Of a DNA stretch of 23,860 bases, positions 6,298 to 23,860 are shown in pieces. The notes under the pieces were generated by a model. It was not told the DNA's origin. It saw nothing but the letters and a program-made list of their open reading frames with translations, and ran no database searches. Source of the stretch: a virus; the IMG/VR virus record IMGVR_UViG_3300042992_000235, positions 1-23,860 of that record. One strand, 5' to 3'. Positions within the stretch are counted from its first letter, which is position 1; every line of letters starts with the position of its first letter. The translations under genes were made by a program, and so were the position numbers.

Positions 6298-6338
6298 TCT
6301 TACTTTGTCTTACATTCTTACTATATCTTACTTTGTCT
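6298..6338. repeat. 13-bp direct repeat pair at promoter P4 (candidate operator)
   Basis: TCTTACTTTGTCT occurs at 6298-6310 and 6326-6338 on the plus strand. The right copy fills most of the spacer of promoter P4, and the left copy lies just downstream of its predicted start. That is a typical placement for repressor sites. Confidence 0.6.
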
Positions 6339-6348
6339 AACTTGTCAA
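6320..6348 (-). promoter_or_regulatory. Leftward promoter P4
   Basis: On the minus strand, TTGACA (6348-6343), a 17-bp spacer and TATAGT (6325-6320). The predicted start is near 6313, giving a leader of about 55 bases before the first gene. Confidence 0.75.
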
Positions 6349-6551: not shown

Positions 6552-6561
6552 GTTTATTTGG

Positions 6562-6587
6562 TAACGAATTGATAACGAAATATAACG
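6562..6587. repeat. Three phased TAACG motifs
   Basis: TAACG begins at 6562, 6573 and 6583, which is 11 and 10 bp apart, so all copies face one side of the helix. The cluster lies between the start of P1 and the -35 of P2. Related pairs occur at 6647-6663 and 6954-6970. Confidence 0.55.
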
Positions 6588-6607: not shown

Positions 6608-6636
6608 ATTATATCACACCATCAAGCCATTGTCAA
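6608..6636 (-). promoter_or_regulatory. Leftward promoter P1 (perfect consensus)
   Basis: On the minus strand, TTGACA (6636-6631), a 17-bp spacer ending TGA (extended -10) and TATAAT (6613-6608). All twelve core bases match the sigma70 consensus at optimal spacing, so this should be a very strong promoter. Confidence 0.85.
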
Positions 6637-6646
6637 GGGTGACACG

Positions 6647-6663
6647 ATAACAATTTAGTAACG
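6647..6663. repeat. 17-bp repeat ATAACAATTTRGTAACG, copy 1
   Basis: ATAACAATTTAGTAACG contains two TAACR motifs 11 bp apart. A copy with one mismatch lies at 6954-6970. This copy is just upstream of promoter P1, the other just upstream of the rightward promoter. Confidence 0.6.
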
Positions 6664-6669
6664 GGTAGA

Positions 6670-6678
6670 CTGTCCACA
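6670..6678 (+). other. Outlying DnaA-box-like site
   Basis: CTGTCCACA differs by one base from TTGTCCACA, the box preferred by actinobacterial DnaA. It lies on the far side of the iterons from the main box cluster. Confidence 0.4.
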
Positions 6679-6696
6679 CTCTCAAACTAGTACAAC

Positions 6697-6756
6697 TTTC
6701 AACTATTGAATTTTCAACAGTTTAAATTTCAATAGTTTAATTTTCAACTATCCCCT
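6697..6756. repeat. Four tandem 15-bp iterons
   Basis: Units start at 6697, 6712, 6727 and 6742, an exact 15-bp period: TTTCAACTATTGAAT, TTTCAACAGTTTAAA, TTTCAATAGTTTAAT and TTTCAACTATCCCCT (the last degenerates at its 3' end). The region is very AT-rich. The spacing and the DnaA boxes that follow suggest an origin of replication. Confidence 0.75.
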
Positions 6757-6782
6757 AGGGGTGTGGAGGGGGTGTATCCAAT

Positions 6783-6824
6783 CCGTCCACAACTTATACA
6801 CACCTGTGGATAACCTGTGGAAAA
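6783..6824. other. DnaA-box cluster, candidate replication origin
   Basis: Four 9-mers begin exactly 11 bp apart. CCGTCCACA (6783, two mismatches to TTGTCCACA) and TTATACACA (6794, matches TTATNCACA) are on the plus strand. TTATCCACA (6813-6805, perfect) and TTTTCCACA (6824-6816, one mismatch) are on the minus strand. One box per helical turn and opposed pairs suit cooperative DnaA loading. An AT-rich stretch (6852-6900) that could unwind lies to the right. This implies host DnaA may help start phage replication. Confidence 0.72.
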
Positions 6825-6953
6825 CGTATGACCCGCCCCAACCGAATCAGCCGATGTAATATCTATATAGACTCCCATCAAATATTTTTTTCAGTATTTT
6901 GGTAATAGGCACACAACTAAAACCCATTGGAATAAGGACTTTAAAAATAGTTT

Positions 6954-6970
6954 ATAACAATTTGGTAACG
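6954..6970. repeat. 17-bp repeat ATAACAATTTRGTAACG, copy 2
   Basis: ATAACAATTTGGTAACG is the partner of 6647-6663 (one mismatch). It ends 16 bp before the -35 of the rightward promoter, a position where an activator could contact RNA polymerase. Confidence 0.6.
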
Positions 6971-6974
6971 AAAC

Positions 6975-6993
6975 GTTACAGTCCCTTTGTAAC
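6975..6993. promoter_or_regulatory. Inverted repeat over the rightward -35 (candidate operator)
   Basis: GTTACA (6975-6980), seven bases, TGTAAC (6988-6993) form a dyad suited to a dimeric regulator. It overlaps the -35 hexamer TTGTAA (6987-6992). Confidence 0.55.
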
Positions 6994-7015
6994 AGGGTTA
7001 GTATATATGTAGGAT
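6987..7015 (+). promoter_or_regulatory. Rightward promoter of the virion operon
   Basis: TTGTAA (6987-6992), 17 bp, TAGGAT (7010-7015), each hexamer matching four of six consensus bases. The predicted start is near 7022, immediately before the hairpin array. Its weakness compared with the leftward promoters, and the dyad over its -35, suggest regulated late transcription. Confidence 0.6.
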
Positions 7016-7020
7016 AAAAT

Positions 7021-7130
7021 AACATAAGTGCGCTTTGGCGCACACAACCTAATGGCAGCCTTTTGTGGCTGCCTAACATAACCTAAAGCAGCCCTTTGGG
7101 GGCTGCTATTATGAGCGCCTTTCGGCGCTC
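7021..7130 (+). promoter_or_regulatory. 5' leader with four tandem GC-rich hairpins
   Basis: After AACATAA (7021-7027) come four perfect stems: GTGCGC/GCGCAC (7028-7043, loop TTTG), GGCAGCC/GGCTGCC (7054-7073, loop TTTTGT), AGCAGCCC/GGGCTGCT (7087-7107, loop TTTGG) and GAGCGCC/GGCGCTC (7113-7130, loop TTTC). The stem sequences differ but the T-rich loops are alike. AACATAA recurs at 7075-7081. No clear T-run follows the stems. The array begins within a few bases of the predicted transcript 5' end. The same arrangement with two hairpins occurs at 1205-1258 on the other strand. Confidence 0.78.
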
Positions 7131-7626: not shown

Positions 7627-9513
7627 ATGGCAGCCAAAGGCGGTGCAGAGCACCATAATGTGGTACGCCTTAGAGAAGACAAGTCCAAGGTTATAGCCCA
7701 CGTAGAGACTGGCATTGAGGTGCGAGCCGCTATTGCCATGGTCGGTCGCAAGCCCGATGTTCTAAAGAAGTGGCTCACAGACCCTGTGTTCGCCAAAGAT
7801 TTAGAGATAGCCCGAACTGCTGGCTCAGACCTAATGAAGGTCACCCTGGGAAGTGAGAACGGCAAGAACATAGACTTCGCCACGTTCTCCAAAGAGTTCT
7901 TAGGTAACGAAGTATTCCCTCACCAGCAGGACTGGATTGACGTTCTGGAGGGAAGGGAGCCTAGTTGGCTCCATCCAGCCATGTCCTATGAAAAGGGCAA
8001 CAAGAACCGTATCTTAATTAATGTGCCACCTGAGCACGCCAAATCCACCGTAATCACCGTAGGCTATAGCACCTATCGCATTGCTATGGATTCCAACGTG
8101 CGTATCATTGTGGTGTCTAAGACTTTAAATAAAGCCCGTGAGTTCGTCTACTCCATCAAGCAGCGACTTAGCCATCCACGTTATGCCAAGTTGCAGCAGG
8201 TCTATGGACCATCTGGTGGTTGGAAAGAAGACTCTGACACCTGGAAGACCGATACGGTCTACCTAGGTCAAGAAGCCCGTGACTCATCCGAAAAGGACCC
8301 TACGCTTCAGGCGCTAGGTATTGGTGGTCAGATTTACGGTGCCCGTGCTGACCTGATTATTCTAGATGACGTTATCACTACTGCCAATGCCCACGAGTGG
8401 GAGAAGCAGTTAGAGTGGCTTCAGAAGGAAGTAATCACCCGTCTGGGTAAAAACGGTAAACTACTTATCGTAGGCACCCGTATCGGAGCGGTAGATTTAT
8501 ACCGAGAACTTCGTAACCCAGAGCACTGGTCTGGTGGCGTTAGCCCGTTTACACGCCTGGCTATGCCAGCCGCACTTGAAATTGACGATGACCCTAAGAA
8601 GTGGGTTACTCTCTGGGAGCGCTCAGACCGTCCTTGGGACGGCGATGATGACGCTGTACCAGACGAAGATGGTTACTACCAGAAGTGGGATGGACCAGCA
8701 CTTTTTGCAAGACGTAGCGAGGTAACAGCCTCAACATGGGCTTTAGTTTACCAGCAACAGGATATTGACGATGACGCAATTTTTAACCCAACGATTGTTA
8801 ATGCCTGTGTTAACCGTATGCGTAAGCCTGGTCCTCTCCGCATGGGAGCGCCTGGACATCCACGAGACGGACAATGGGTAACCCTTATTGGTATGGACCC
8901 TGCTATGGCAGGAAAGACTGCGTTAGTTGTTTATGCGATTGACCGTCAGTCTGGTAAGCGTCTAGTCCTAGATGCCTACAATATGTCAGACCCAACACCT
9001 GGCAAGATTCGTGCAATCATTGAAGACTGGATTAACACCTACCGCCCAGTAGAACTGCGTATTGAAATCAACGCCCACCAGAAGATGTACGAGGTGGACG
9101 AAGAGTTCCGCCAGTACCTGGCTAATAAGGGTGTAAGGTTCTCCAGTCACTTCACTGGCAAGAACAAGTGGGACACCGACTTCGGTGTGGCTGCTATGCA
9201 GGGCTTGTTTGGTACCATGACAAGCAACAAGCACAACCGAGATAATCTCATTGAACTACCAGACCCTCAGTACCACGAGGGTATCAAGGCTCTAATCAAT
9301 CAGTTGATTACTTGGAAGCCTGGAACTCGTAACCCTACAGACGTTGTAATGGCTCTGTGGTTCTGCGAGATTAAAGCCAAAGAAATGATTCAGCACTCTG
9401 GGAATCAAATCTGGCACGCAACTAGCCGCTTTGTTACTCAACGACAGATGGCACAGCAAGCAGTTGTTAATCTTGACGATTTAGCAATGGAACAATTTAC
9501 AACTTATCTTTAA
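7627..9513 (+). CDS. terL: Terminase large subunit with N-terminal helix-turn-helix-like segment
   Basis: This 628-residue packaging motor pumps DNA into proheads and cuts it. A Walker A-type loop VPPEHAKST is at residues 133-141, a Walker B ADLIILDD ends at Asp247/Asp248, and LLIVGTR (279-285) is the coupling motif. The RNase H-like nuclease has Asp424 (IGMDPAM), Glu480 (LRIEINAHQK) and Asp572 (TDVVMALWF) as probable metal ligands. Residues about 20-62 (ETGIEVRAAIAMVGRKPDVL, then KKWLTDPVFAKDLE) look like a helix-turn-helix of the type used by small terminases, so DNA recognition may be built in. It is followed nine bases later by the portal gene. Confidence 0.95.
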   Translation: MAAKGGAEHHNVVRLREDKSKVIAHVETGIEVRAAIAMVGRKPDVLKKWLTDPVFAKDLEIARTAGSDLMKVTLGSENGKNIDFATFSKEFLGNEVFPHQQDWIDVLEGREPSWLHPAMSYEKGNKNRILINVPPEHAKSTVITVGYSTYRIAMDSNVRIIVVSKTLNKAREFVYSIKQRLSHPRYAKLQQVYGPSGGWKEDSDTWKTDTVYLGQEARDSSEKDPTLQALGIGGQIYGARADLIILDDVITTANAHEWEKQLEWLQKEVITRLGKNGKLLIVGTRIGAVDLYRELRNPEHWSGGVSPFTRLAMPAALEIDDDPKKWVTLWERSDRPWDGDDDAVPDEDGYYQKWDGPALFARRSEVTASTWALVYQQQDIDDDAIFNPTIVNACVNRMRKPGPLRMGAPGHPRDGQWVTLIGMDPAMAGKTALVVYAIDRQSGKRLVLDAYNMSDPTPGKIRAIIEDWINTYRPVELRIEINAHQKMYEVDEEFRQYLANKGVRFSSHFTGKNKWDTDFGVAAMQGLFGTMTSNKHNRDNLIELPDPQYHEGIKALINQLITWKPGTRNPTDVVMALWFCEIKAKEMIQHSGNQIWHATSRFVTQRQMAQQAVVNLDDLAMEQFTTYL

Positions 9514-15400: not shown

Positions 15401-18126
15401 GTGGCTTGATGATGGATGACTCTTTCGCTGGAATCGTTGGCGATATGATGCGTAAAGAAATTAGTTCCGCAAATACCGTTCTTGCTACCGTATTCGGTGC
15501 AGACCGTGTGGTAATTGGTAACATTCTTAACGGACGTGTACGTCAAGATGTAGTATCCCCGTTTAATGTTGTCCCAAGAGAAGGCAATCTTACCGCTGCT
15601 ACGCTAAATACAGAGTGGGCACCTATTGCTGCAGACTATGCTAATCGTCAACTTCGTGATGCAGTAACTAAGAAGTTAACAACTCTTGATACTGCAGACC
15701 CAGCGTCAATTTCAAAGGTAACTGCGTGGGCTAAATCAAATGACCCTGAGGCTGTTAAATGGCGTGAGTTGATGGCTATAACAATCAGTAACCTTGAAAA
15801 CAAATATGACGTTAATGACCCAATTAGTCTTTTAGTACAGAACGATGCCATTTTCCTAGAAGGAACATTGCCACGTTTTGGCATTGATGGTCGTGTTGTT
15901 GCACCATTAGTTGATGACGCAGGTAACTACATACTAACTCGCCGTGGTGAAGTTATTCCTGGAACTGGAATTATTGCCGAAGAGTCAGGTCAGTTAGTAC
16001 CTGGCTTACGTGCTAAGGCTGTTGAAGGTAAACTAACCGCTGAAGACATGAATGCCATTCCTGAACGTCAACGTGTCAGTGTTAGTGGAAATGTTCTTGA
16101 AGAAGAAACAGGAAACATTTGGGAACGTGGCGTACAAAAACTGTTTGAAATCATTGGAACAAAGCCAGAAGATTTGGCTGTAAAGAATCCAATCTACAGA
16201 ATGGTATACCAGGCAGAGTCTAGAAGAATAGCATCCCTATGGAAAGATGCTGGTCGTAGCGATGACTGGATTAATGCCAACGCAGATAAGTTACGTGAGT
16301 CAGCACATCGTGCTGCTTACAAGACTGTAATGGAAAGATTGTATTCCGTACAGCGCAAGACTGACCCAGCAGAAACACTTCGTTTGTTCTCTCCATTCTG
16401 GATGGCTAAGCAGAACTCAAACCGCTTCTGGTTTGGTTACGCTGCTAGAAACCCACAGGCTATACCACGTTACTTTCTTATCTGGTCATCTCCGTCTCGT
16501 GTCTTTGACGTAGAGAATGAAGATGGACAAGATGTAGAGTTTGTAAATCCGTTTGACCCTAAGGGTGCTGCGGTAAAGTTTACATTGCCTGAGACCATTG
16601 CTTCCAAGATGGGCATGACTGAGGGTGACAGAATGTCAGCATCCCTTGGAACTTACGACTTGATTAACAATGGTTTCTACCCAATCATGCCAGAGTTTGG
16701 TGCACCAGTTTATGACTTTGCAGCAAGTGCTGCATTGCTTGGAATGTCTGGTTCATTGGTTGACCCAGAGCCGCTACTAATTAAGTTTGGCGTAGACCCA
16801 AATAAGGTTCGTGACTTGTTTGCTGGTTACGTTAAGACTGGAGCACCAGTATCTGAACGTGACAAGTTTTTTAACTTCTTAATTAATCCAAACGCATGGA
16901 TGCGTTCTGTATTAACTGCAGGTGAAGATGTGCCATTAGCAAACAATGTCACTGGTTTCTTAGACCCAGCAGCAGCCAATCGTTTTGCTGCTGGAGTTAA
17001 TAAGAACTTCAAGTTCCTATACGAAGACTTTGCTAACAAGCAAGTTGTTGAAGGTGTAGATTCCGATATCACCTATCTTGACCAAATCACCACTATTGCT
17101 GATTTAACACAACAGGCTATTGGTCTTACTATCCAAGAAAATATGTGGGAAGCATTCTTTTCGTTTCTTGGACCTGTCGGTTCCATAAAGATAGAAAAGT
17201 ATGCTGACATTAAGGCAAAAGAACTTCGCCAGTATCAGGATATGTATGGTTATGACGAGGGCAAGTACCGCTTCATGATTGATAACACCAAGATTGCAGC
17301 CGATGGTTCTGTTGAAAGATACGGTTCATATACGTTATCTATTGCTGAGGGCAACACACGTGAGACAAATCCATTTGGTGTGATAGCAACTCCACAAACA
17401 GTTAAGGCTATCAACTACAACAAGGACCTATGGACCACATTAACCCAAGCGTCAATGGGTAAAGACGTAACACCAGACAATAAAGTTGTTGGTATGTTGT
17501 TTAACATGGGAGATAGAAACAAAGACTTCTCCGAAACAGCAAATGCAAAACTATACCAACTAAACGTTAAACGTGCGAATGTAAATCGTGAGGCTGAGCA
17601 ACGTGCTATGGCTGTTGATATGGGCTATGACGAATACTTTACCTTGCTGGATAAGTATGAGTCTGAGGCTGAAAGCAACGGTATTATTCCTGGTTCAAAA
17701 GAGTTTAAGGATATCTACGGCGAAGACCTAAAGGCTGCGGAAGATGCGTTAGCAAAGCGTAATCCTATTTGGGCTAATGATAGTTCAGTCTTTAATATGG
17801 GTAAGTCAAACCTAAACACTCAGATTATTCTTGAAGCCATGGGTGACGAGAACTATGTCAATACCATCGTCAAAAACAATCGTGCACTAGAGGCTTTGTA
17901 TTACTACATGGAATACCGCAAGCCAATGGTTGAAGAACGTCTGAGTATATCAGATAACGAAAAGACAAACATCTATAACACTAATGCCTTTGATGACCTT
18001 GTTGCCCAAAAAGAAGATTTACTTAACCAGTTGATTGCGTGGGAACCAACGTTTGAACCAATAGCAAAGTACTACCTAAAGAGGGACCCACTGCTTTCAG
18101 ATGGCGAACTAGCGAGGATTAAATAA
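12409..18126 (+). CDS. Giant (1,905-residue) probable internal virion/ejection protein
   Basis: This single ORF fills nearly a quarter of the window. Most of it is predicted soluble and helical. Two stretches resemble conserved parts of giant phage virion or polyvalent proteins as I remember them: YWKPTTLASVKYATRNVGDG near residues 721-740 (pattern W-K/R-P-x-x-L-x...R-N-V), and a segment near 1285-1345 with ERLYSVQRK then LFSPFWMAKQNSNRFWFGY (pattern ...SPF-x-x-A-x-x-N). I see no convincing lysozyme or transglycosylase motif. Podoviruses store proteins this large inside the capsid and inject them to build a channel across the cell envelope. The position between portal and scaffold fits. Coupled on both sides by TAATG. 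Confidence 0.85.
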   Translation: MSLFDVYDNQRDKRGRVQKFIDGLALSVSGTFDQISIPSLTKGLTFGYVGQKTAASGVPTTDIAQQITEEAEFAVNDAQVKANNTLLWPIQTFVTRPISTAMLAANDGYQQQAIGESQNIKGPFLSYDVLSAATNPELFRKAWIDSRGVSPMQAFVGYIGDNVNGTQGTDKIIWSSEKDVSEYFDHGIQRWITWGGDTAIAWWLDPGVVASAGIGFGARKYITRPVSSKRMNQTLKDIDDAVINYVNNDWSTFVGFAKENAGDPALIARHSMMAGNRPLAEIVAKTASYGNDTGDYQPLARTLKVGIGDPKTIDELAYDTTLTAQELSNITGEVASIKQKIADLKGKPITSGSSQFLIGTQRKNALENYRRNILVKDLDGLRGEVKAVRTNLEVLDDIIAEVPVGSIGRQTVSRFKVIEQSRVKNAIKNDANYWQSERIGPFAYVTNWINPSGMLQEYPAYYATVGGIAGDRSHLEYAARVRQYGKATAKSGNEQRELYNNFFSLREKTQQLQAFDELDEKVIVDVIKKEITIPKNATPEQMETFNELVQIVASKSTAHRNSMITKLVDENYTIDDGFGSAMYVKELSDFQDSIAFQIAQERGTGSKVTQKDIEAAKAEVRAIFAKTPSRSPQVPAVHFGLDIRQFSKSVRENRSSLQAMFDELVSNPRYKDMDMKEIVSLFSDEKSRKMLYTEKIASAPEKGLKAWDTSLSALDTFYTQYWKPTTLASVKYATRNVGDGWQRGLAISLEWSRDYGVPAREVLASAFDRGVWQRYTGNKEKTFEAQKSKYLLYKYREEFKDIEVAENSRIADALFNTSDSVFSTFTQALNSADDIATAYAAGRGPAVPIMDDIRGFSQTFGYRILDSKNVPDGVDQQLLSKFVDGDHAGAFDILASSDERFVLDTLAELQKRVRKERDSINEIFNKEEFFFTVPNGAQVQLGFIYKMLEQMDFSIQNTANAAILKATARNKAESFINKTDVLRSLERYGEGEFQVTKSGLMMDDSFAGIVGDMMRKEISSANTVLATVFGADRVVIGNILNGRVRQDVVSPFNVVPREGNLTAATLNTEWAPIAADYANRQLRDAVTKKLTTLDTADPASISKVTAWAKSNDPEAVKWRELMAITISNLENKYDVNDPISLLVQNDAIFLEGTLPRFGIDGRVVAPLVDDAGNYILTRRGEVIPGTGIIAEESGQLVPGLRAKAVEGKLTAEDMNAIPERQRVSVSGNVLEEETGNIWERGVQKLFEIIGTKPEDLAVKNPIYRMVYQAESRRIASLWKDAGRSDDWINANADKLRESAHRAAYKTVMERLYSVQRKTDPAETLRLFSPFWMAKQNSNRFWFGYAARNPQAIPRYFLIWSSPSRVFDVENEDGQDVEFVNPFDPKGAAVKFTLPETIASKMGMTEGDRMSASLGTYDLINNGFYPIMPEFGAPVYDFAASAALLGMSGSLVDPEPLLIKFGVDPNKVRDLFAGYVKTGAPVSERDKFFNFLINPNAWMRSVLTAGEDVPLANNVTGFLDPAAANRFAAGVNKNFKFLYEDFANKQVVEGVDSDITYLDQITTIADLTQQAIGLTIQENMWEAFFSFLGPVGSIKIEKYADIKAKELRQYQDMYGYDEGKYRFMIDNTKIAADGSVERYGSYTLSIAEGNTRETNPFGVIATPQTVKAINYNKDLWTTLTQASMGKDVTPDNKVVGMLFNMGDRNKDFSETANAKLYQLNVKRANVNREAEQRAMAVDMGYDEYFTLLDKYESEAESNGIIPGSKEFKDIYGEDLKAAEDALAKRNPIWANDSSVFNMGKSNLNTQIILEAMGDENYVNTIVKNNRALEALYYYMEYRKPMVEERLSISDNEKTNIYNTNAFDDLVAQKEDLLNQLIAWEPTFEPIAKYYLKRDPLLSDGELARIK

Positions 18127-22781: not shown

Positions 22782-23860
<1,079 letters not shown>

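Follow-up and report, generated by a model that had tools for sequence, protein, structure and literature searches.

Does a short segment between two divergent phage operons bring a host replication initiator onto the phage genome and, if so, what for? The segment lies at about 6.7 kb in an IMG/VR viral record of 23,860 bases, which was analysed whole and is referred to here as the window. An earlier note on this DNA had proposed that four 15-bp iterons, four DnaA-box-like 9-mers and an AT-rich stretch form a plasmid-like origin, at which host DnaA and an iteron-binding phage protein start replication. Direct use of host DnaA is known for few tailed phages. Found in phages of very abundant lake bacteria, and again in at least 120 other viral contigs, a compact DnaA array that can be swapped would reveal a common phage tie-in to host replication control. 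The segment of ~350 bp is small enough for direct testing, and natural pairs of relatives with near-identical terminases, one with boxes and one without, provide a ready-made comparison.

Genome layout and likely host

The location between divergent operons stands as first described: leftward early/replication genes and rightward terminase and structural genes flank the segment (Table 1). The terminase is at least 94% identical in dozens of contigs, and the closest named records by this protein (54% identical) are OX376640 and OX376641, that is, LanE43-AprE7 and LanE43-AprF5, both cultured on 'Ca. Planktophila' (PMC10202952). Because these nearest named phages were cultured on that bacterium, and taking into account the WhiB-like regulator, the host is likely a freshwater actinobacterium of the 'Ca. 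Planktophila' order. A search for the host through prophages found no relative of the major capsid protein in 84,980 genomes.

In complete relatives the left operon encodes a DnaB-like helicase, a Toprim primase, RusA and an exonuclease. No initiator gene was recognised in that operon, and the left-operon genes searched gave no match to Rep/initiator families, a search that may not reach distant families. For the proteins encoded closest to the array in the left operon there are almost no family assignments, and no dnaA gene was recognised in the phage.

Table 1. Positions of the features discussed, in window coordinates
Feature	Position	Strand	Remarks
Leftward genes	below 6257	-	encode, among others, a WhiB-like regulator and a RecB/Cas4-type exonuclease split in two
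Second leftward promoter-like site, TTGACA-17-TATAGT	6320..6348	-	score 11/12
Perfect sigma-70-type promoter of the leftward operon, TTGACA-17-TATAAT with TG	6608..6636	-	score 12/12
Left anchor of the exchangeable cassette, GGGTAGACTGTCC	6663..6675	.	read by eye
TTTCAA repeats, overlapping 18-bp palindromes of TAGTTGAAnnTTCAACTA type, probable dimer operators	6688..6751	.	inverted repeat
CCCCTAGGGG palindrome, between operators and boxes	6752..6761	.	similar short C/G palindromes in several relatives
Slot 1, weak DnaA-box-like 9-mer CCGTCCACA	6783..6791	+	3 mismatches to TTATNCACA
Slot 2, DnaA box TTATACACA	6794..6802	+	
Slot 3, consensus DnaA box TTATCCACA	6805..6813	-	identical in 12/13 box-bearing sequences
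Slot 4, DnaA box TTTTCCACA	6816..6824	-	TTTTCCACA or TTATCCACA in 13/13 box-bearing sequences
Right anchor TATGACCC	6827..6834	.	kept in relatives with and without boxes (by eye)
Candidate DNA-unwinding element, least stable 100 bp	6857..6956	.	stability scan
Conserved right module ahead of the late operon	6869..7020	+	exact core in 27 viral stretches
GTAACGAAACGTTAC palindrome in the right module	6965-6979		
Weak rightward promoter, TTGTAA-17-TAGGAT	6987-7015	+	read from the sequence, below the promoter-scan threshold
Rightward genes	from 7214	+	encode, among others, the terminase large subunit, portal, HslV-family peptidase and major head protein
Terminase large subunit (TerL)	7627-9513	+	

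A phased DnaA-box array next to the window's least stable stretch

The array consists of three strong DnaA boxes and one weak one at exact 11-bp steps, two per strand. The four 9-mers and their period were thus confirmed, with the qualification that the box at 6783 is weak; several relatives carry a better box in this slot, such as TTGTCCACA, TTATACACA or TTATCAACA. Three strong boxes within 40 bp occurred in 1 of 2000 Markov windows and the 11-11 phasing in 0 of 2000. The hexamer TTTCAA lies at 6697, 6712, 6727 and 6742, exactly 15 bp apart. No other 6-mer of the window recurs four times with a fixed period (periods 8-30), and none of 400 first-order Markov windows contained any such 6-mer. 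For boxes and hexamers alike, these simulations bear out the statement that such regular spacing is hard to get by chance.

The AT-rich stretch described after the boxes is real. Its core, which starts 33 bp right of the array, is the least stable 100 bp of the window, and the 50- and 200-bp minima fall at the same place; at the 50-bp scale, 6701-6750 comes second. Among relatives with boxes, one (G002) has its genome minimum directly right of the array and another (G004) its second lowest value there. The second lowest value also falls at the corresponding place in a relative without boxes (G009), and in two unrelated phages with arrays (G021, G022) the least stable DNA is not beside them.

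Conservation, gain and loss of the array

Relatives were picked by terminase identity and not by boxes. With the last box as the point from which slots were numbered backwards, the window and 12 relatives (13 sequences) share the order forward-forward-reverse-reverse with steps of 10-12 bp. In slots 1 and 2 most variants are still DnaA-box-like, for example TTGTCCACA and TTATACACA; the column counts for the slots overstate conservation, since these 13 sequences were chosen for having boxes. By a less biased count, at least two phased box pairs are present in 11 of 22 distinct loci, the other 11 having fewer than two. The expected conservation of spacing in relatives was therefore found in part: the 11-bp period persists as 10-12 bp steps wherever boxes occur, about half of the relatives lack boxes, and the 15-bp repeats are inherited independently. 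Boxes keep their place while the flanks change, and the DNA to their left is unrelated among, for example, the window, L004, L010 and L023. Several relatives have a second small box group further left, and the complete box-bearing relatives G002 and G004 have a single cluster.

Mapped onto the terminase tree, the presence or absence of boxes switches about six times, and well-supported branches force at least two of these changes; some relatives without boxes have a TerL near-identical to that of relatives with them. Replication genes are the same in both groups, and no gene, as a candidate initiator, convincingly separated the two. As the replication genes are retained where boxes are missing, the machinery they encode cannot depend on the array.

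The TTTCAA repeats are overlapping palindromes

Comparison of relatives changed the reading of the left-hand repeats. The positions and the period of TTTCAA are exact as first described, and the interpretation as 15-bp iterons was rejected: the units are better described as 18-bp TAGTTGAAnnTTCAACTA-like palindromes, neighbouring copies of which overlap by 3 bp, and the fourth 15-bp unit is half a unit. Palindromes accompany boxes in the window, L003, L017 and L019 and occur without boxes in L021, L028 and L029, and boxes occur without palindromic repeats in L004, L007, L010, L012 and L016; therefore, the two repeat sets do not form one obligatory unit. The TTCAA palindromes are probably operators of a phage regulator and not an obligate part of an origin.

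Inspection by eye delimited a cassette that is bounded by GGGAGACTGTCC on the left and TATGACC on the right and that contains the DnaA-box array, TAGTTGAAnnTTCAACTA-like palindromes and/or TAACGA repeats; in L021, the TAACGA repeats lie at the place that the DnaA boxes occupy in the others. The left anchor, which is GGGAGACTGTCC in most relatives and GGGGGATAGTC in the cultured phages E7 and F5, recurs (by eye) at the left edge of the variable stretch whether or not boxes are present. In the window, the TAACGA motif recurs at 6558-6587, 6646-6665 and 6952-6979, partly in 11-bp steps and together with the GTAACGAAACGTTAC palindrome; motif and palindrome are a possible site of a second regulator.

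Host-type boxes and the predicted binding of DnaA

We examined the dnaA locus of 25 actinobacterial genomes of 1.0-1.5 Mb, a host group that was inferred from size, G+C and class and in which a few higher-G+C genomes may be of other lineages. The locus has boxes in these genomes, nearly all with a perfect TTATCCACA, and some pairs are 10-12 bp apart. The exact 21-mer ACACCTGTGGATAACCTGTGG of the phage array was found in only 3 of 84,980 genomes, none evidently from the likely host group, and in one of them, from Elusimicrobia, it lies directly upstream of dnaA. Its convergent 11-bp pair TTATCCACAnnTGTGGATAA occurred in 2 of 297 sampled Actinomycetes chromosomes and was absent from the small actinobacterial genomes sampled. 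That the 21-mer is so rare and once stands beside dnaA supports DnaA as the binder and disfavours a simple copy of the host origin; the idea that the array is a copy of the host oriC is ruled against by this rarity and by the absence of the pair from the small genomes.

Overall, because the array keeps its place, order and spacing, has the host-type box and adjoins the least stable DNA, we accept it as a predicted host-DnaA-binding array, with a probability of roughly 85%. The phage probably borrows the host initiator, since sites of the host-DnaA type lie evenly one helix turn apart and are swapped among relatives.

Similar arrays in other viruses

Three boxes at 11-bp steps were found in at least 120 other stretches of the viral collection, the same pattern read backwards in none, and a looser pattern with 13-bp steps in 4. 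Among 328 close spacings in other viral contigs 11 bp dominates, at loci that had been preselected by the 11-bp pattern. Longer arrays are present in two phages that share hardly any genes with the window phage: G022 has boxes at 16237, 16248, 16259, 16270, 16281, 16292, 16303, 16314 and 16325, and G021 has three clusters near promoter-like sequences. Clusters of DnaA boxes also occur in annotated phages of other hosts, including Lactococcus phiL47, Streptomyces phages, the T7-like P483 and Arthrobacter phages, and the 4 annotated records with such clusters that we inspected have no origin annotation. In Escherichia phage P483 (L291), five TTATCCACA boxes lie in the non-coding region between a packaging gene and the early genes.

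In 35 of the 120 matches listed, a gene for a small basic protein lies a few hundred bases from the array; these proteins form one family, gave no family match and may be terminase small subunits. One phage family (L189, L206, L199, L178, L173, L188 and others) carries 10-14 DnaA boxes, with a conserved small basic protein, also without a PHROG match, 200-450 bp away. In L181, an ORF overlapping a relative of this protein matches endolysins.

Tentatively, and with less than even confidence, helically phased host-DnaA arrays could represent a widespread, horizontally exchanged element upstream of terminase genes in several unrelated lineages, by which lytic phages would, where early and late genes meet, use the host initiator or capture it. 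We found no report of phased DnaA arrays beside terminase genes in open-licence papers.

A replication start as the candidate role

The most likely role of the array is to start replication, a plausible best-explanation reading of the sequence to which we would give an even chance. We infer the following course. An exchangeable control cassette, set between the leftward early/replication and the rightward terminase/structural operons of a lytic phage of freshwater actinobacteria, would recruit host DnaA to the helically phased array, two boxes forward and two reverse at 11-bp steps. From its sites at 6783-6824, DnaA would assist in opening the unstable stretch next to them (6857-6956), where helicase and primase, either those of the phage (left-operon genes of complete relatives) or the host enzymes, could be loaded.

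Unstable DNA beside initiator sites, as expected of an origin, is found here. An origin should also be present in all members sharing the replication genes, about half of which have no boxes; a different origin in those relatives would also explain the missing boxes. An iteron plasmid origin should have direct repeats with a nearby Rep gene, and iterons and boxes should occur together; here the repeats are palindromic, no Rep family was matched and each repeat set is found without the other.

The GC-skew check proposed around 6.7 kb gave no support to an origin. Raw skew switches at divergent and convergent gene junctions, in relatives with and without boxes alike, and, since it does so at both kinds of junction, follows gene direction; fourfold sites showed no origin-like pattern and no shift at the antipode, and did not clearly set near rightward genes apart from far ones. 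Skew was dropped as origin evidence, being confounded by gene direction and the same in relatives without boxes. Given that half of the relatives have no boxes, that there were about six gains or losses, that skew lends no support and that the palindromes are inherited independently, sequence comparison indicates that the cassette is an exchangeable control module and not an obligate iteron-plus-DnaA origin. From the original proposal of joint initiation, DnaA is thus supported by the sequence and an origin is plausible, while the joint plasmid-like unit falls, the palindromes being independent.

Among known systems, bacterial oriC and dnaA-promoter arrays likewise space consensus TTATCCACA boxes by about one helix turn and, in Elusimicrobia, share the 21-mer with the phage array, whereas here the array is in a phage with no recognised dnaA and its TTATCCACAnnTGTGGATAA pair is rare in Actinomycetes chromosomes. 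The iteron plasmid origins of P1, F and RK2, which use DnaA (PMC4980987), also combine DnaA boxes with tandem repeats and AT-rich DNA within a short segment; they differ from this phage, which has no recognised Rep gene and whose repeats are palindromes with an inheritance independent of the boxes. For Pseudomonas phage PseuGes_254, Ori-Finder proposed an origin made up of DnaA boxes and AT-rich repeats (PMC11512268), in that case a single-genome prediction for an unrelated phage. Within the phage group itself, LanE43-AprE7 and LanE43-AprF5 (OX376640, OX376641; PMC10202952) share with the window the layout, a TerL at 54% identity, the left anchor (as GGGGGATAGTC), the right anchor (as TTTGACC) and the AT-rich module, and differ in having no DnaA-box array.

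Alternative roles

DnaA at the array could instead repress or activate the divergent phage promoters according to host replication state, with no initiation there. The operons on its two sides do diverge, a perfect leftward promoter is 146 bp off, and a weak rightward promoter is also present; the array and palindromic operators replace one another at this site, and clusters 1 and 2 of the three in G021 are followed, no more than a few hundred bp on, by gene starts and promoter-like sequence. However, the closest promoter is at least 146 bp away, the distances vary (146, 207, 217 and 285 bp) and 9 of the 13 box-bearing sequences have no good leftward promoter within 900 bp. This variation and these missing promoters are unlike fixed-geometry regulation, and we regard transcription control as unlikely, at about one chance in a handful.

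The array might instead be a sink for DnaA, which would soak up the host protein as phage copies rise and so stop new rounds of host replication. Its location and strand order are more constrained than a sink needs, and such a sink would have just three good boxes per genome to work with here. The boxes are exactly of host type, other phages carry up to 14 of them, and clusters also occur in P483, a T7-like phage and so of a group not known to need DnaA. Titration appears improbable on this balance.

A packaging or entry element, in which the array would be part of a pac/cos-linked or DNA-transfer stop region beside the terminase, would fit the position of 7 of 13 arrays at most 3.2 kb upstream of TerL in records with a recognised TerL (about 1 expected; P 2e-5, or 1e-3 after one family was collapsed); these records are few, were selected on contig size and are not all independent. 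In T7-like and Arthrobacter phage records, boxes are located close to the ends, and contig ends differ among relatives of the window. DnaA boxes are also reported in the injection stop signal of T5 (PMC13250531), like this phage a lytic one with non-coding repeats and palindromes; the T5 signal differs in belonging to a phage with two-step DNA entry. That close relatives with near-identical TerL have no boxes is odd for a terminase recognition site, and we consider a packaging or entry role quite improbable. Chance or a compositional artefact has a negligible probability, contradicted as it is by the shuffle tests, the conservation, the reversed-pattern control and the presence of the array in independent assemblies.

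Other features of the window

The RecB/Cas4-type exonuclease is encoded by two ORFs (324-983 and 983-1363, - strand) that match successive parts of one profile and overlap at TAATG. Because several relatives keep this junction, the split looks like a real two-gene arrangement and not a sequencing error. Short G+C hairpins (GTGCGC, GGCAGCC, GCAGCCC, GAGCGCC) stand in a row in the rightward operon's leader (7028-7130); relatives have them in the same position, with stem sequences that have partly changed. At the other end of the window, 22946-23695 is a long collagen-like Gly-X-Y repeat region with 9-bp and 18-bp tandem repeats, probably a tail fibre gene.
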